Below, one piece after another: positions 8,792 to 17,394 of a stretch of DNA of 38,264 nt (positions are counted from its first letter, which is position 1; each line of letters begins with the position of its first letter). The translations under genes were made by a program, and so were the position numbers. The stretch covers positions 1 through 38,264 of the forward strand of contig JAFGDG010000139.1 of the NCBI GenBank assembly GCA_016932245.1, written 5' to 3'. The notes beneath the pieces are model-generated. The model was given only the letters and a program-made list of their open reading frames with translations. It was not told the DNA's origin and made no database searches. The stretch is from Thermoplasmatota archaeon (lineage in GTDB: Archaea > Thermoplasmatota > E2 > DHVEG-1).

Positions 8792-8908
8792 TCACTTCTT
8801 TTTGTGCTTTAACTTGAACATATCTCTAAGAAGAAAATAGGTAAGTGCTAGTGTTGCAAGAATCAGCACAACAGCATCAATGATTAACAACATGGCAACG
8901 GCGTCCAT
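8792..8908 (-). CDS. 38-aa single-TM small protein translationally coupled to the SSS symporter
   Basis: MDAVAMLLIIDAVVLILATLALTYFLLRDMFKLKHKKK; start overlaps symporter stop (TAATG) with GGAGG about 9 nt upstream; longer ORF start at 9019 lies inside the symporter gene. Confidence 0.6.
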   Translation of the reverse strand: MDAVAMLLIIDAVVLILATLALTYFLLRDMFKLKHKKK

Positions 8909-10326
8909 TAGCCCATCCTCCGCATATGGATAATATTTACAATGACAAAGATAATTAAAGACATCATTAACCCAGGATACAGGGGTTCTAACCCATAGTA
9001 ATATTGTGGCCATCCCCAACTATCAAGGTTCATATAACCAGTAATAAGCCAAAAGAGCGAGGTACCTGCTCCTGCAATCATAGAGAGGACAGATGCCAAT
9101 GATGATTTTCTACCATTATAAAAAAATCCCACAAGGATAGGTACAAGCAAAGCAGCAATACCGATAGTACCTAGAGTATACCACATAGCAACAATGGAAT
9201 CAAAAAAGAGAGCGATGACTAGTGCGAATCCTGCAGTAATAACGATGCTGATTTTTGTCATCTTCATCTCTTGTTTCTCAGTGGAGTTTGGCCTGAAAAT
9301 ACCTTTATACAGATCATGAGAAATATTCATGGCACCAAGCAGAGTAAAAGAATCAACAGTACTCATCACAGTGGCAATAAGCCCTGTTAAAAATATTCCC
9401 AACAACACGGGGGGCAAAACAGAGCTAGCGATTGATAGATACGAGGTTGCCGCAGATTCAACAGAAAGCAAACCTGCATTGTAGGCAGCTGCTGCATACA
9501 TACCGGTGAAGGTTGTACAAATGTCAAAGAGCAACCAAAAGACAATAGCAATGAGGATACCTTTCCGGGGAATGCGATCATCTTTTGCCGCATAACACCG
9601 TTGGTAAAAACCAGGATCGACAAGTGTCCAAAAGGCAAGCAGCCCCCATACAAGAATCATTTGTGTGGTCCAGCCACCAGTAATGGTTAAATGGGTCGAA
9701 GGGAGATTTACCATAAGAAAATCTAAACCTCCGTATTTCTGAATGGTAAAGGGAATGATCAGCGCAACGCCTATCATCATAAAGAGAAATTGTAAGAAGT
9801 CAGTGTAGATATCAGCAAAAAATCCTCCGCGGATGGTATAAAAAATAATGAAAATAGTTCCAAAGAGAATACCTAACCATGCTTCACATCCAAAGAAAAT
9901 ACTAAAAATAATGCCCAGTGAAAAAATATAGGGAGCAGGAGTTACCATAATAAAATTGAAAATTGCTCCAACAAACCGTGATTTTTTATCATAGAATCGT
10001 TCAAGCTGATCAGGAATCGTATAGAGGTTTGACTTTCGTATTCTATTGGCAAGAAAGAGGGCAAAAAAAAGATATACCAAGTACCAGAAGAAGCCTTGGG
10101 TGAGCCAATTAACAAGTCCATAATTAAAGGAGAGCTCGCCAACACCCAATAGCCCGCCGTACCATGTAGAAACCAGGGTTGCAACAAAGATAGGTAGCGT
10201 AAGGCGACGGCCTGCTAAAAAATAATCGGTAATACCGTGTACTTTCTTTTTTACTACATAGCCTATGACAAAAAGTAAGACGAAGTAGAATCCAATAATC
10301 CCATAATCAATCAGCGATATCTCCAT
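8908..10326 (-). CDS. sodium:solute symporter (SSS family)
   Basis: 472 aa, ~13 TM segments; DYFLAGRRLTLPIFVATLVSTWYGG, TIRGGFFADIYTDFLQFLFM, LTGLIATVMSTVDSFTLLGAMNISHDLYKG. Confidence 0.92.
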   Translation of the reverse strand: MEISLIDYGIIGFYFVLLFVIGYVVKKKVHGITDYFLAGRRLTLPIFVATLVSTWYGGLLGVGELSFNYGLVNWLTQGFFWYLVYLFFALFLANRIRKSNLYTIPDQLERFYDKKSRFVGAIFNFIMVTPAPYIFSLGIIFSIFFGCEAWLGILFGTIFIIFYTIRGGFFADIYTDFLQFLFMMIGVALIIPFTIQKYGGLDFLMVNLPSTHLTITGGWTTQMILVWGLLAFWTLVDPGFYQRCYAAKDDRIPRKGILIAIVFWLLFDICTTFTGMYAAAAYNAGLLSVESAATSYLSIASSVLPPVLLGIFLTGLIATVMSTVDSFTLLGAMNISHDLYKGIFRPNSTEKQEMKMTKISIVITAGFALVIALFFDSIVAMWYTLGTIGIAALLVPILVGFFYNGRKSSLASVLSMIAGAGTSLFWLITGYMNLDSWGWPQYYYGLEPLYPGLMMSLIIFVIVNIIHMRRMG

Positions 10327-10338
10327 TTGCTCCCCCGC

Positions 10339-10974
10339 TCATTCCTTTCTTACTCGAATAACCAACAGTTTTCCTTTAGCTAGAGCAATGGTTGCAGTAT
10401 TTTGTAGTAAACGATTTGAAATACCAAACCATCCGACCGTGGTTTTTTTGTTGGTCACTGGCCATTTCATCCCTTTATAGGATAAACCTGCAACATCAGT
10501 TAACGGAACGACAGAAACAATGTCATTTTCTTTTCCTGTAATATCAACGGGTTTGTCGACCAATTCAATCGTATTGGTCTCATCAATAATCTGTGCCTTG
10601 ATTGCTGATGGCAATTTAGTAAGACAAAGCATGTTAGCTAGCGTGTGATCCATCCGGCACCCAAGGGCACCAAGTAATACAATTTCTTGTGGATTGAGGG
10701 ATTCGGCAAGAGATAAGGCCAATTCAACATCAGTTTTATCTGGATTAGTATCTTTAACGAGCGTGGTTTTCTTTTGTTCAATAAAGTAGGAGAGTACCTG
10801 TGCCGTTATGGAGTCAAAATCTCCAACAATATACTCTGGAATAACTCCCAATGCGTAGGCATGATTCGCACCGCCATCAGCACAAATAATCATGTCAACG
10901 TTACCCAATATTTTTTTGTGAAATGCATCATCCGTAATGGTTCCGTTAGCAATAATGGCTAGTTTCTTATGCAT
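10339..10974 (-). CDS. thiamine pyrophosphokinase
   Basis: CADGGANHAYALGVIPEYIVGDFDSI, KDTNPDKTDVELAL, LLGALGCRMDHTLANM; internal ATG at 10974 preferred. Confidence 0.87.
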   Translation of the reverse strand: MHKKLAIIANGTITDDAFHKKILGNVDMIICADGGANHAYALGVIPEYIVGDFDSITAQVLSYFIEQKKTTLVKDTNPDKTDVELALSLAESLNPQEIVLLGALGCRMDHTLANMLCLTKLPSAIKAQIIDETNTIELVDKPVDITGKENDIVSVVPLTDVAGLSYKGMKWPVTNKKTTVGWFGISNRLLQNTATIALAKGKLLVIRVRKE

Positions 10975-12013
10975 ACTTCTGTCTCCAGGATTCTGACGTT
11001 CGAAAACATCGGGGATCCCTTCCATAAATACCTCTTCCAGCAGCATATGCTCGTGAGCGACACCCCCAACAGATACTAGAAAGGAGACAGGACGCACAAG
11101 ATGATGGCAATTTCGTACCATCTTTCATAGATTTCAGTATCAAATAATCCTTATGGCGGTCCACTATCTCCCGAAATGAATCATGGCCATGGATTGACGG
11201 AGCGGCAGGATCTCGAATCGTTGCACAGGGAGTAATGCCTCCATCACACAGCACTGCAACGGTTGCAGAACAGTAGTATTTATTTACACAGTTCATAGGA
11301 ACCTGATAAACACCATGCTGTTGCGCATAATAGTGGTATACCTTTGCTACTTCTTCCCTTGAGGGAATAAAGCGTTCAAGATCCATTGATGGACTTCCAG
11401 GGCGCAGATAGGTATGATAGATATTTAATGATGTTAACATGCCAAACTGTTTTTCGAAATACTCCATAGTTGCAATCATATCATCTGCTGTCTGTAAGCC
11501 GGTAAAAGTAACAGAATTAAGCAGTTGCGAGGCAGGGTATCCTAAGTCTAACACACGGCCGATAGCAGATAAAATAGTATAAAGATCATCAGTCGACCGA
11601 TGGGGGTGAAGCCTCTGATATATCTCAGGATTGACACTAGACACATGAACAGAAATCAATCCCGGATTGGCATAGGCCACTGCTTTCTCCGCAACAGAAG
11701 GATTAGCCAGTGGTAATCCACCGGTCCAGATATTGTTTCGAAATCCCAACTTGTGTGCTAGTGCCATATGGTCAAAAATAGATCCTCGGAGGAGCGGCTC
11801 TCCACCAAGCCATTCTATAGCACAAAAATCTAACTGTCTAGCATCGTGTAGAATTGCTGTAATCTGTTGATCGGAAAGTGTATTATGCTCCTGTTCAACA
11901 GCATTCATGTAACAATATACACAGTCCTGAAAACATTGATCGCCTACCTCGAGTTGCAAGGCGTAGAACCCGTCAGTTTCATATGCTTTTCGCAACCGTT
12001 GCTCATCTATCAT
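10967..12013 (-). CDS. radical SAM protein with SPASM-type C-terminal cysteine domain
   Basis: CFQDCVYC (CX3CX2C), WLGGEPLL; C-terminal C-ATVAVLCDGGITPC...CASCLLSSICWGC...RC SPASM pattern. Confidence 0.87.
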   Translation of the reverse strand: MIDEQRLRKAYETDGFYALQLEVGDQCFQDCVYCYMNAVEQEHNTLSDQQITAILHDARQLDFCAIEWLGGEPLLRGSIFDHMALAHKLGFRNNIWTGGLPLANPSVAEKAVAYANPGLISVHVSSVNPEIYQRLHPHRSTDDLYTILSAIGRVLDLGYPASQLLNSVTFTGLQTADDMIATMEYFEKQFGMLTSLNIYHTYLRPGSPSMDLERFIPSREEVAKVYHYYAQQHGVYQVPMNCVNKYYCSATVAVLCDGGITPCATIRDPAAPSIHGHDSFREIVDRHKDYLILKSMKDGTKLPSSCASCLLSSICWGCRSRAYAAGRGIYGRDPRCFRTSESWRQKYA

Positions 12014-12800
12014 TGGAGACCTCTTCTAAAAAAATCAGGAGTTTTTTTACCACATCTATTGCATCAGTTCCAAGGATATAGGTACACGGCTCAATACCAA
12101 AATCTCCTTTGTGCAAAAGGATATCAGCATGTTTGGTATCGTCAAGGAGTTTGAAATCTTGAGTAAGATAACTAGCTTGCAAACTGCTTTTAGTAACATT
12201 GGGGAAATGAGCAACATTCATGATGGCATGAACATCAAGGGTCTGCTGCAAATACAACAAAAGCGAAGAGAGATGCTGACTCGCCCCGAAGCGTATTCCA
12301 TTAAAACTGGATGCTTTTCCATCCACCACCACTAGACCATTTAGAAAAGAAGCAACATCTTCTGCGTTCTTTGCATCTTTTTTTGCCATGGCAATATTAA
12401 CTTTTACCTTTGGCAATAGCCGGCCAATCTCTTTTCCCCTTAAAAGGAAAAATGCCTTGGTCAGATTGTCGATTATTGTATCGGTTTCATCATAACTTAT
12501 TTCATTTTTTGTAGCGATATACCATTTACCCTGCGTGATTTTTTTAGAAAAAGAAACACTGGTATGAAAGGCAGGTGTCGAACCATCGATGATTATCTCA
12601 GCAATCGCCTGTGCCTGTCTCATAATGGAAGAAGGGATGGAAACAGCAGACGTACAATAATTGCTCACCATCGGTTGGGAAAGTTGGAGCAGGGAAGAAA
12701 TTTTTGATTGTTCCATATTTTTACGATATAAAATTTTTGCAATAGCTCTTTTTAGCAGTATTGAATTGTGTTCTGGAACGAAAAATGCTTCCTCCACCAT
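12003..12800 (-). CDS. HTH + ThiN domain protein (ThiR-like thiamine regulator / thiamine-phosphate synthase-like)
   Basis: N-terminal HTH (MEQSKISSLLQLSQPMVSNYCTSAVSIP); C-terminal ThiN-like VNIAMAKKDAKNAEDVASF...RFGASQHLSSLLL...HADILLHKGDFGIEPCTYILGTDAIDVVKK. Confidence 0.82.
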   Translation of the reverse strand: MVEEAFFVPEHNSILLKRAIAKILYRKNMEQSKISSLLQLSQPMVSNYCTSAVSIPSSIMRQAQAIAEIIIDGSTPAFHTSVSFSKKITQGKWYIATKNEISYDETDTIIDNLTKAFFLLRGKEIGRLLPKVKVNIAMAKKDAKNAEDVASFLNGLVVVDGKASSFNGIRFGASQHLSSLLLYLQQTLDVHAIMNVAHFPNVTKSSLQASYLTQDFKLLDDTKHADILLHKGDFGIEPCTYILGTDAIDVVKKLLIFLEEVSNDR

Positions 12801-12808
12801 ATTAACTG

Positions 12809-12826
12809 CTAATAGAAATATATTAG
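12809..12826 (-). promoter_or_regulatory. candidate operator palindrome between TATA-like box and thiN/thiR start
   Basis: CTAATA-N6-TATTAG perfect inverted repeat; TTATAAA-like TATA element immediately upstream on the minus strand (about 12829-12836). Confidence 0.45.
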
Positions 12827-12898
12827 TTGTTTATAAGACTGTCGATTTGTGGCTGTAGACCGCTAACGCTTTATACTCCACTCCTCTGATATATTGCT

Positions 12899-13336
12899 GT
12901 GTATACAATTCGAACCTTTGAACCAACCGACATGTTTCCCGTAATTAAACTTGTTTCTGAAACCTTGCCGGAACGGTATAATCCTAGCATATTCAATTAT
13001 TTTTATGAGACGTTTCCTAAAGGATTTCTGGTTGCTGAGCAATATCACAAAATTGCTGGTGTTCTCGTCAGCGTTATGCTTAATGAGAATATCGCAAAGA
13101 TTCTTATGATTAGCGTTACTCCAGAACATCGTCGGAAAAAGATTGCAACACATTTACTTACTCAGCTAATGAAGAGATTAGCACAAAAAAATATCAAACA
13201 AGTGGAATTAGAAGTTCGTACAGATAACCAATCTGCCTTTAATTTTTATCAAAAACAGGGGTTTACTACACTGCGTCGATTAGAGCATTTTTATCAAAAT
13301 GGAGAGGATGCATATTCAATGCGCAAATCGCTTTAG
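12899..13336 (+). CDS. GNAT N-acetyltransferase (RimI-like)
   Basis: IAKILMISVTPEHRRKKIATHLLTQLM acetyl-CoA binding motif; VRTDNQSAFNFYQKQGFTTL; GTG start. Confidence 0.85.
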   Translation: MYTIRTFEPTDMFPVIKLVSETLPERYNPSIFNYFYETFPKGFLVAEQYHKIAGVLVSVMLNENIAKILMISVTPEHRRKKIATHLLTQLMKRLAQKNIKQVELEVRTDNQSAFNFYQKQGFTTLRRLEHFYQNGEDAYSMRKSL

Positions 13337-13638
13337 GACCGTATGAGTTCTTTTTCTTTATTAGTCATAAATCGTTCAGACATTTGATCCAACCGATTCG
13401 AAATCTTATCTAATCCTGTACACTGGTTATTTGATAGGAGACAAGCAATTCCTCTGCTGAGGGTAAACACCGCAAGCTTATGTTCTCGCTTTGACTTATA
13501 TACTTGGTAGGGGGTAACATCGAGCCTTTGGTATGCCATAAACTCGCTCCCACCATTGTGTTCAACCATATCCTCCAGATGAGTCCTCAGTTGAAGTAAA
13601 AACGTGTGCAATTGAATAAGTTCGTCTTTCTGCATCAC
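13333..13638 (-). CDS. UPF0058 family protein
   Basis: MQKDELIQLHTFLLQLRTHLED N-terminus and length typical of archaeal UPF0058. Confidence 0.7.
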   Translation of the reverse strand: MMQKDELIQLHTFLLQLRTHLEDMVEHNGGSEFMAYQRLDVTPYQVYKSKREHKLAVFTLSRGIACLLSNNQCTGLDKISNRLDQMSERFMTNKEKELIRS

Positions 13639-13762
13639 AATCTTCCACCATCAGAATATATGATGACATGCGGCGTCGACTTTTTATGTCTTTCTATGGG
13701 GGTTTTAAATATAACTCCCACGAACTAAGTTGTGTTTATAAAAAAAGATAAAGGAAGGGGGA

Positions 13763-15028
13763 TCAATCTAGATCCTTTTTAGTCAAAACTTTAACGGATG
13801 CGGGCATCTTAACAACATTGCCGAGCTTGATGCCGACAATTTCTTTGACGTTTTTATTGTTGGCAATGTCAAGCAGTCGTTGGGTAATGATACCGTCAAA
13901 TACGACGGTTGAAATGTTGTTGCTTTTCTTAAGTGCATCAGTTAATTCCCTGACAGGTATTTTCTTGAGTTCTTTTTCATTTTCATCAAATAAGACTGCT
14001 TTAAGTGAGCCAGAGATACTATCTAAAATTTTGCCATAATTTTTCTGAGTGTCAGTCATAATTTTCTTTTTGTCTTCTTTGGTTTGCTCTGATTTTTGTG
14101 GTTTTGATTTCTGCGATTCTTTTTCTTGTTCTTTTGATTGTTGAGTTTGTTGCGGTTTTTGTAACTCTTTATCTCTTTTCTCAATTTTAATATCGTACAT
14201 CTCAGCATATTGCTCAGCAGGGATCTTATTTTTAAGAGCTTTCATAATCAGCTTTTGTGGGATTTCTTCGACCTCGCGAGTTTGTGGTGCCCGAGCAACA
14301 AAGTCAACATCTGCGGTTTGTAGCAATTCCTTTAAAATGAGTTCTCCCCCGCGGTCACCATCAACAAAGGCAGTGGTAATACGTTCTTTTGTTAAATCAA
14401 GAACTGTTTTCGGAATGTTTGTTCCACCTACGGCAATGACATTTTTAATGCCGTATTTCAACAGATTCAAGACATCTCGTCGTCCTTCAACAATAATGAT
14501 GGCGTCGCTTTTGTCAATATTGGGACCCGCAGGGCAGTGATCTTGTCCAAAATGGACGATTTCTTCAACTTGCACTGCTTGCCGGACATTATCGGCAATA
14601 CTCGCGCCTTCAACCTTTCCTTCTTCAATTACCTTATTGAGAAGCTCCTTTGCTCGCTCAATAACTTTCTTTCGTCGAACGACACGCACATCTTCAACTT
14701 CATCTGCTACAATGGTTGCTTTGCATGGACCGACTCGATCAATACTTTCGAAGGCAGCAGCAAGAATGACCGTTTCGACTTTGTCTAGGGAGGTTGGCAA
14801 CGTAATAGTACCTTCAGATTTCCCATTCTTTGATTCAAGTTCTACCTCAATCCGGCCAACACGGGCGGATCGTTGCAGTTCTCGCAAATCTAACTCATCG
14901 CCGAGAAGACCTTCGGTTTGCCCAAAAATTGCACCGACGACATCAGATTTTTCAATAATTCCATCTGCTTTAATATGAGCTTTAATCAAATATTTTGTTG
15001 TTGCTGGATCGATTACCATGATATTCAC
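13763..15028 (-). CDS. dnaG: archaeal DnaG-type primase (Toprim)
   Basis: TTKYLIKAHIKADGIIEKSDVVGAIFGQTEGLLGDELDLRELQ, SDAIIIVEGRRDVLNLLKYGIKNVIAVGGTNIPKTV, AFVDGDRGG; Q/K/S-rich linker near the C-terminus. Confidence 0.95.
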   Translation of the reverse strand: MNIMVIDPATTKYLIKAHIKADGIIEKSDVVGAIFGQTEGLLGDELDLRELQRSARVGRIEVELESKNGKSEGTITLPTSLDKVETVILAAAFESIDRVGPCKATIVADEVEDVRVVRRKKVIERAKELLNKVIEEGKVEGASIADNVRQAVQVEEIVHFGQDHCPAGPNIDKSDAIIIVEGRRDVLNLLKYGIKNVIAVGGTNIPKTVLDLTKERITTAFVDGDRGGELILKELLQTADVDFVARAPQTREVEEIPQKLIMKALKNKIPAEQYAEMYDIKIEKRDKELQKPQQTQQSKEQEKESQKSKPQKSEQTKEDKKKIMTDTQKNYGKILDSISGSLKAVLFDENEKELKKIPVRELTDALKKSNNISTVVFDGIITQRLLDIANNKNVKEIVGIKLGNVVKMPASVKVLTKKDLD

Positions 15029-15043
15029 CTTTTATGTTCTTGT

Positions 15044-15200
15044 TGAAAAATAGCACCTTTATTAGCTTCGTAGCAAATAGAGGTGGTTACCTTCTTCATT
15101 GCGTGTAATAACACGAAGTATCAGATTAAGCGGTAAATCGATTAACTCGAAGTTAACAACATATCATGTGCTATTTTTCATGATATTTTTTACGATATGT
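15044..15200. promoter_or_regulatory. structured dnaG-metG divergent intergenic region with nested inverted repeats
   Basis: 13-bp perfect IR TGAAAAATAGCAC (15044-15056)/GTGCTATTTTTCA (15168-15180); CGTGT-AATA-ACACG (15102-15115); TTAACT-CGA-AGTTAA; ATATCATG-N10-CATGATAT. Confidence 0.5.
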
Positions 15201-15267
15201 TGCTATATATGAGGGTTGCGCCATATTTAAATGTTATGCCCATATTCACGGATGAGGAATTGTTCAG

Positions 15268-17394
15268 ATGACGGGAAAAGTTTATATCGGTGTTGCCTGG
15301 CCGTACGCAAATGGTTCACTCCATCTTGGCCATATTGCTGGTTGTTATTTACCAGCAGACATCTTTGCTCGATTTCAGCGTATGACCGGCAACGAGGTTC
15401 TCATGGTTTCTGGGAGTGACGAACACGGAACACCCATTACTATTACAGCAGAAAAACAACAAACCACCCCTCAAGCTATTGTGGATAGATACCATAAAGA
15501 ACACGCACAGAATATGAATCAATTTGGCATTTCCTTTGATCTATTTACTAGGACCACAACAAAGAATCATAAAGAGACGGTCCAAGATATCTTCTTAACA
15601 TTAAAAGACAAGGGGCATATTTATACAAAAGAAATAGAATCATTTTACTGTGAAACCTGTAAGCGATTTCTTCCCGATCGTTACCTTGAAGGAAAATGTC
15701 CTCATTGTGGCAAAGAAGGGGCAAGGGGCGACCAGTGTGATGAATGTGGAAAATTACTTGACGCTCAAGAGTTGCTTGATGTCACGTGTAAACTTTGTGG
15801 AGGAACACCAGAACTTCATACTACCGAGCACTTCTTTTTTGCATTGAGTGCTTTTGAATCAAAACTACAGACGTGGATCAAAGGGAAAAGCTACTGGAAG
15901 GCAAGTGTCCTTCATTTTACGGAAAATTGGTTAGAAAATGGATTGAGAGACCGTGCAATCACCAGAGACATGTCTTGGGGCATCCCTGTACCAATTAAAG
16001 GATTTGAAGATAAACGCATCTACGTGTGGTTTGATGCAGTCATCGGCTATCTTGCGGCAAGTAAGGAATGGTCACAAAAACAAAACGACCCTAGTAAGTG
16101 GAAAGCCTGGTGGAAAGCAAGGGGGGTGAAACATTACTATTTCTTAGCTAAAGACAATATTCCGTTTCATAGTTTAATATGGCCCTCGATGTTAATGGGC
16201 TATGATGCCGATTTGCAATTGCCCTATGACATTCCTGCCAACGAATATCTAAGACTCAAAGGAGAGCAGTTTTCAAAGAGTCGGGGTCTTGCCATATGGG
16301 TTCCGGATGTGTTGAAGAAGTTTGATGTTGATGCGGTACGCTATTATCTTTCCATTAACATGCCTGAAAACAAAGATACCAACTGGGCATGGGATGATTT
16401 TGTTGCAAAAAATAACGATGAGTTGGTGGGCACCTATGGAAACTTTATCCATCGAGTTGTAACATTTACGGCAAATAATTTTGGAAAGATACCGCCAGCA
16501 GGACCTGCCAATAAAGAGGTTGATGCTAAAATTGCCGAAGCCTCCAAAGACGCCAGTAACGCTATTGCTCGCTGCGAATTCAAAAAAGGATTGAAAGCAG
16601 TAATGGCACTTGCACAATTTGGAAATGTATATTTTGATCGACAGAAACCGTGGGAATTAATTAAAACTGAAAAAGAGCAGTGTGGATTTGTGTTACATCA
16701 CTGTCTACGTATCATACAGGCTCTCGCCGTCTACATGACTCCCTATCTGCCTTTTTCCTCCGATACGCTATGGAACATGCTCGGTCATGAGCAGTCCATC
16801 CATAAAGCAATGTGGGATGATGCACAAACGTCAGTAAAAGTAGGAACTACGTTGGAAAAACCAAAACCATTATTTAAGAAACTATCATTGAAGGATTTCA
16901 TGGAGGAGGCAGAAGACCCCTTTGAAAAACTTGACTTGCGTGTTGCACAGGTGCTAGATGTAAAAGACCATCCGCAAGCAAACAAACTGTATCTTTTGCA
17001 TCTTGATCTTGGTGCACTGGGAAAACGTGTCATTGTTGCAGGCATGAAACCGTACTACACAAAAGAGGAATTGAAAGGGAAAAAAATTGTCGTTGTATCT
17101 AATCTTAAACCAGCGACCATCCGGGGGGTAAAATCGAACGGCATGTTGCTTGCTGCGGAAGATGGTGGCGTGTGCTCACTGCTCGATCCAGGTGATGCAA
17201 CACCAGGATCTGAAGTATTTGCTGAAGGCACTGCCCACCAACCTGCTGGAATTGTTGAATTTGAAGAGTTCAAGAAAGTACCGTTGCAGATTGGAGACAA
17301 GAACAGAGCAACCTATGGAAATAGAGCACTCCAAACAGAAAAAGGCATTATTATTGCTGACAAATCCATGAAAAAAGGAACGAAAATATTGTAA
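15268..17394 (+). CDS. metG: methionyl-tRNA synthetase with C-terminal tRNA-binding domain
   Basis: WPYANGSLHLGHIAGCYLPADIFARF, zinc knuckles CETC...CPHC...CDEC...CKLC, KGEQFSKSRG; C-terminal FEKLDLRVAQVLDVKDHPQANKLYLLHLDLG. Confidence 0.96.
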   Translation: MTGKVYIGVAWPYANGSLHLGHIAGCYLPADIFARFQRMTGNEVLMVSGSDEHGTPITITAEKQQTTPQAIVDRYHKEHAQNMNQFGISFDLFTRTTTKNHKETVQDIFLTLKDKGHIYTKEIESFYCETCKRFLPDRYLEGKCPHCGKEGARGDQCDECGKLLDAQELLDVTCKLCGGTPELHTTEHFFFALSAFESKLQTWIKGKSYWKASVLHFTENWLENGLRDRAITRDMSWGIPVPIKGFEDKRIYVWFDAVIGYLAASKEWSQKQNDPSKWKAWWKARGVKHYYFLAKDNIPFHSLIWPSMLMGYDADLQLPYDIPANEYLRLKGEQFSKSRGLAIWVPDVLKKFDVDAVRYYLSINMPENKDTNWAWDDFVAKNNDELVGTYGNFIHRVVTFTANNFGKIPPAGPANKEVDAKIAEASKDASNAIARCEFKKGLKAVMALAQFGNVYFDRQKPWELIKTEKEQCGFVLHHCLRIIQALAVYMTPYLPFSSDTLWNMLGHEQSIHKAMWDDAQTSVKVGTTLEKPKPLFKKLSLKDFMEEAEDPFEKLDLRVAQVLDVKDHPQANKLYLLHLDLGALGKRVIVAGMKPYYTKEELKGKKIVVVSNLKPATIRGVKSNGMLLAAEDGGVCSLLDPGDATPGSEVFAEGTAHQPAGIVEFEEFKKVPLQIGDKNRATYGNRALQTEKGIIIADKSMKKGTKIL

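Follow-up and report, generated by a model that had tools for sequence, protein, structure and literature searches.

Contig JAFGDG010000139.1 of a Thermoplasmatota archaeon (assembly GCA_016932245.1), whose 38,264 nucleotides are referred to here as the window, carries on its minus strand a thiamine (vitamin B1)-linked cluster of five closely packed genes, the second of which encodes an unassigned radical SAM/SPASM protein. The original prediction, made from the sequence alone, read them as a thiamine-linked operon in which the radical SAM protein performs an uncharacterized thiamine-related step. The five open reading frames (ORFs), with their coordinates, overlaps, and gene names, all proved correct in an ORF check and hidden Markov model (HMM) scans, and they are listed here with a conserved element upstream of the first gene.

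12801..12837, minus strand: conserved promoter/operator-like element ending at the thiR start codon, with a TATA box and repeated TATAAAT-n-ATTAATAT blocks
12003..12800, minus strand: predicted helix-turn-helix (HTH)-ThiN regulator (ThiR-type), 265 aa; PF10120, 90.1 bits (cut-off 25)
10967..12013, minus strand: radical SAM/SPASM enzyme of an unnamed family, 348 aa; PF04055, 40 bits
10339..10974, minus strand: thiamine pyrophosphokinase (TPK), 211 aa; TIGR01378, 168.5 bits (cut-off 76.4); PF04263 and PF04265
8908..10326, minus strand: SSS-family Na+/solute symporter, predicted thiamine importer, 472 aa; PF00474, 141.9 bits
8792..8908, minus strand: single-span membrane peptide, 38 aa, translationally coupled to the symporter; homologues at the same place in relatives

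The thiR and radical SAM genes overlap by 11 nt and the radical SAM and TPK genes by 8 nt, a gap of 12 nt separates TPK from the symporter gene, and the symporter and peptide genes meet at a TAATG junction. The host genome (G000 in the comparisons below) comprises 1.62 Mb in 161 contigs and is 88.7% complete and 5.4% contaminated. An assembly chimera is unlikely at this locus, because the upstream gene order matches that of relatives and the G+C content at third codon positions of the radical SAM gene equals that of its neighbors. A thiamine pyrophosphate (TPP) riboswitch was also considered and rejected, as one tRNA was the sole Rfam match over threshold in the window.

Predicted regulator and upstream element

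The HTH-ThiN protein is 47-60% identical to the HTH-ThiN proteins at the head of thiamine operons in relatives. All 14 HTH-ThiN proteins aligned lack both the MNIRY arginine and the STMEWGT loop; in ThiDN synthases from the archaeal family of the host, the loop is kept and the arginine position of MN(I/L)RY is mostly Arg (or Lys, and in a few cases Cys or Ser). Since these catalytic-type synthase residues are gone, the predicted function of the window protein is likelier that of a regulator than that of a synthase. Its N-terminal part contains a segment conserved in the alignment, KISxxLxLSQPMVSNYC, and no HTH model from Pfam was reported for it. With a putatively HTH-like N-terminal part joined to a ThiN domain without synthase residues, a position at the head of a thiamine operon, and a conserved element upstream, the protein resembles archaeal ThiR regulators.

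A position weight matrix (PWM) built from the thiR upstream regions of nine relatives scores 23.2 bits at the 37-nt element that ends at the thiR start codon (12837-12801). Its maximum in 10 shuffles of the window, which kept base composition only, is 6.1 bits, and it gives 25-53 bits at other thiR genes, most of them in the training set. Because the conserved element overlaps a TATA box, it may be a promoter, an operator, or both. Within the operon body, the PWM reaches at most -0.2 bits and there is no second conserved thi-type element. Thus, the proposal that the five genes form one transcription unit agrees with the search for separate internal promoters, which found none, and the position of the sole conserved thi-type element upstream of the regulator gene makes it probable that the radical SAM gene is co-transcribed with the operon. 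Co-transcription does not, however, establish shared function.

A predicted uptake cassette in related genomes

In a set of 45 genomes from the archaeal family of the host, exactly five (G000, G175, G195, G198, and G203) have a TPK over the cut-off, and exactly the same five have a close relative of the symporter (70-82% identity); the two genes are adjacent in 5/5. Identical five-of-45 sets would arise by independent draw about once in 1.2 million, a figure that is weakened by relatedness, though the five genomes span four genera. The four genes that flank the radical SAM gene are thus a real thiamine operon, as had been proposed, and the reading can be sharpened to a regulator of the ThiR type together with a kinase for free thiamine and its linked symporter, in a genome where no thiamine biosynthesis gene was identified.

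The TPK-SSS pair is preceded by thiR in G000, G203 (locus L124), and G195 (L129), and in L124 no gene separates thiR from TPK, the two overlapping by 11 nt. In the window, thiR lies beside genes for a GNAT protein, UPF0058, DnaG, and MetRS (12003-17394). The same neighbors, or as many of them as the contig holds, are found in seven relatives in which thiR is followed by thi4-thiE-thiC-thiL (L118, L120, L121, L122, L123, L125, and L126; the L118 stretch ends after thiE, and the domains of the four genes were checked for L120). In G000, on contig C57 of G203, and in G195, the TPK-SSS pair stands in place of thi4-thiE-thiC-thiL behind thiR, and contig C183 of G203 (L117) carries a second thiR with biosynthesis genes. 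At one chromosomal place, behind the same regulator gene, a biosynthesis operon is swapped for an uptake cassette. The window thiR heads a salvage cassette at a place where, in relatives, its counterparts head the biosynthesis operon, and the same regulator gene can thus head either. A separate feature of the remaining two cassettes is a conserved 490-aa protein that precedes TPK-SSS on contig C30 of G198 (L136) and contig C1 of G175 (L137); the L137 copy was checked and has no NCBIfam match.

The assignment of the kinase is reinforced by its best PDB sequence matches, which are solved TPK structures. The symporter scores 133.8 against TIGR00813, below the cut-off of 184, and among PDB sequences it matches the choline transporter CHT1 best. 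CHT1 carries a quaternary-ammonium cation and thiamine is also a cation, so that this match is only a hint at thiamine. Neither ThiC (PF01964) nor ThiDN was found in the G000 assembly, Thi4 gives partial Rossmann-type matches only, and no ThiE exceeds the cut-off, the single weak match being by sequence a hexulose-phosphate-synthase-like protein. With no thiamine monophosphate synthase of either kind (ThiE or ThiDN), hydroxymethylpyrimidine (HMP) and thiazole could not be joined, which points to intact thiamine as the likely cargo. From this absence and from the linkage to TPK in five genomes, the symporter would probably carry intact thiamine, and the host genome appears dependent on importing it. 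Symporters of the ThiV type, which serve in HMP/thiamine uptake (PMC11452348, PMC10881298), are also SSS proteins linked to thiamine metabolism. ThiV of SAR11 carries HMP (PMC11452348), whereas the window symporter has a TPK partner in a genome without detected biosynthesis genes, making intact thiamine the likelier cargo; in addition, its gene is followed by a conserved small membrane peptide.

The 38-aa peptide has no family match in HMM scans. Peptides of 37, 56, and 45 aa follow the symporter gene in G195 (L129), G198 (L136), and G175 (L137), respectively, and share the pattern LLIxDAxxLxxATxxxxYFxxxD. They are coupled to it through TAATG in G198 and G175 and through a near-identical junction in G195. 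Because these homologues follow the same symporter in three genomes, the ORF is more than a chance occurrence, and the peptide could be an accessory subunit of the symporter. Together, the SSS protein and the conserved membrane peptide of 37-56 aa offer a candidate thiamine importer of archaea that can be tested.

The radical SAM/SPASM family

The cysteines that the original prediction assigned to the radical SAM protein are present as claimed. The CX3CX2C motif of the radical SAM (RS) cluster (C27/C31/C34) is invariant in 37 sequences, and the SPASM set comprises C248-X9-G-X4-C263 and C306-X2-C309-X5-C315-X2-C318-X17-C336, plus C242. Compared with the SPASM motif CX9-15GX4C - CX2CX5CX3C - C (PMC5715301), the CX9GX4C block and the final cysteine are present, and the second block reads CX2CX5CX2C, the spacing between C315 and C318 being X2 rather than the textbook X3. 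Across 31 sequences, 81 of the 348 positions vary little or not at all. No NCBIfam model is matched over its cut-off (score/cut-off: AhbD 45.7/500, PqqE 51.8/381, MoaA 47.6/325, NirJ2 55/500, viperin 30.5/180). The C-terminal motif of the heme synthase AhbD, CX2CX5CX2CX17C (PMC10452713), is identical in spacing to that of the window enzyme, which shares the full eight-cysteine set. However, its score of 45.7 on the AhbD model (TIGR04545) falls far below the cut-off of 500, and a CobO-type gene in L007 is the only tetrapyrrole link among annotated neighbors of its orthologues.

The AlphaFold2 model of the protein (pLDDT 91, pTM 0.90) finds its best Foldseek matches in anSME, SuiB, PqqE, MoaA, and SkfB at 13-18% identity, and these predicted similarities give the SPASM architecture, not the substrate. 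PF01964 was not reported for the protein in the HMM scan, in line with the claim that it is unlike ThiC; a ThiC-like role was rejected, as the domain is missing from the protein and was not found in the genome. A viperin-like role in defense was likewise rejected, the matches to the radical SAM core being weak. The protein is a member of an unnamed SPASM family in which the cluster cysteines do not vary.

A scan of 84,980 species genomes with two peptide patterns, from which 80 loci were kept, gives a lower bound on the extent of this family. At least 30 loci encode orthologues (42-63% identity over nearly the full length) in bacteria and archaea, spread over Bacteroidota, Bacillota, Ignavibacteriota, Chloroflexota, Asgard, and Bathyarchaeota. 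A sample of 194 genomes from the host's phylum contained no orthologue, only homologues of 34-36% identity. The orthologues separate with full support in a tree from a sister family, phyla are mixed within their clade, and the window protein branches beside bacterial sequences with moderate support (86/82). Carriage of the gene by plasmids or viruses was considered and rejected, as neither the plasmid nor the viral collection contained relatives.

Within about 5 kb, the neighborhoods of the orthologues have almost nothing in common. A tblastn search of 352 kb with nine thiamine proteins (E 1e-3) placed a thiamine gene near 0/30 of them, and the same queries did hit the thiamine loci of relatives. 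This null is strong, not absolute, because distant bacterial versions could be missed at the threshold and some contigs end near the gene. None of the other four genomes with a TPK-SSS cassette (G175, G195, G198, and G203) has an orthologue. The neighborhood check set beforehand thus finds the orthologues consistently in non-thiamine contexts, and the proposal that the radical SAM protein catalyzes a thiamine step is not supported.

A salvage operon with a probable passenger enzyme

The reading that we favor, at a probability of roughly 70%, is that of a thiamine uptake-and-salvage operon that has one promoter and that harbors a horizontally acquired radical SAM gene unrelated to thiamine. The order thiR, radical SAM, TPK, SSS, and small membrane peptide would be expressed from a promoter upstream of thiR, which the HTH-ThiN protein would release when thiamine or thiamine phosphates are scarce. 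The Na+-coupled symporter, together with the small peptide, would then import intact thiamine, which TPK would convert to TPP. The radical SAM gene would be a self-contained SPASM enzyme acquired horizontally and inserted, in this lineage alone and perhaps neutrally, between thiR and TPK. It looks like an acquired passenger because not one of its 30 close relatives elsewhere has a vitamin B1 gene nearby and the cluster occurs without it in related archaea. As the cysteine set is full, the enzyme would probably bind its clusters and make a 5′-deoxyadenosyl radical for the oxidative modification of a substrate with no specific tie to thiamine.

Several points weigh against this model. The 11- and 8-nt overlaps that flank the radical SAM gene show that it is tightly coupled to its neighbors, as could result from selection for shared expression. 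In G198 and G175, neither a thiR gene nor the conserved element precedes the TPK-SSS cassette; with the assembly 88.7% complete in 161 contigs, biosynthesis genes may have escaped it; and regulation and transport are themselves predictions from sequence. The first of these points also bears on a lineage-specific thiamine job, in which the enzyme repairs, oxidizes, or converts an imported vitamer or breakdown product for TPK. The gene lies between regulator and kinase, overlapping both, behind the only thi-type promoter element of a genome apparently dependent on imported thiamine. Yet the orthologue neighborhoods and the four cassettes without the enzyme speak against such a job, and, as neither ThiE nor ThiDN was found, the host could not assemble thiamine from partial precursors; we regard it as improbable. 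Slightly less probable again is the variant in which a mobile SPASM enzyme was recruited into the ThiR-controlled operon for the repair or conversion of an imported thiamine derivative, which would add a hitherto undescribed radical reaction to vitamin B1 salvage. The gene also cautions against deducing function from a single operon, its family being strongly conserved and widely spread.

The sister family offers a different comparison. At least 50 loci from the same scan belong to it, in Chlorobi, Asgard, Bathyarchaeota, Methanoperedens, and Thermoplasmatota. It is the nearest found to the window enzyme (32-36% identity), with the RS and seven SPASM cysteines all in common, and a sarcosine/dimethylglycine-type methyltransferase gene adjoins the radical SAM gene in most loci (L036-L085, L003, L004, and L005). 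To our knowledge, this conserved gene set has not been described. These loci often also contain a conserved membrane protein and, in many archaea, genes resembling TIGR04282 and TIGR04283, whose annotation is that of arsenosugar glycosyltransferases. By analogy, the window enzyme could act on a similar small metabolite with no methylation step. This possibility is rather unlikely: the sister enzymes have a fixed methyltransferase partner, whereas the orthologue clade has neither a methyltransferase nor a glycosyltransferase partner, and the clade has Cys at position 242, where the sister sequences inspected have Asp.

Finally, the SPASM architecture and the peptide- or protein-modifying activities of anSME, SuiB, PqqE, and SkfB raise the question of whether the enzyme matures a ribosomally synthesized and post-translationally modified peptide, perhaps the 38-aa membrane peptide or the symporter. 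This reading is very improbable and was rejected: G195, G198, and G175 all conserve the small peptide yet have no orthologue of the enzyme, and no short ORF recurs within 1 kb of the 30 orthologues apart from the near-identical pair L013/L025.

Sporadic neighbors of the orthologues, named by sequence inspection, include ferritin-like genes (L019/L022), speE- and agmatinase-like genes (L018/L023), and carB-like genes (L006/L032). In L032, from a Coriobacteriaceae metagenome-assembled genome (7376-7930), the orthologue comes directly after a carB-like gene and an ATC-hydrolase-family gene (PF14196), a single case. A thioredoxin-like gene follows the orthologue in Asgard L009 (9081-9530) and in L015.

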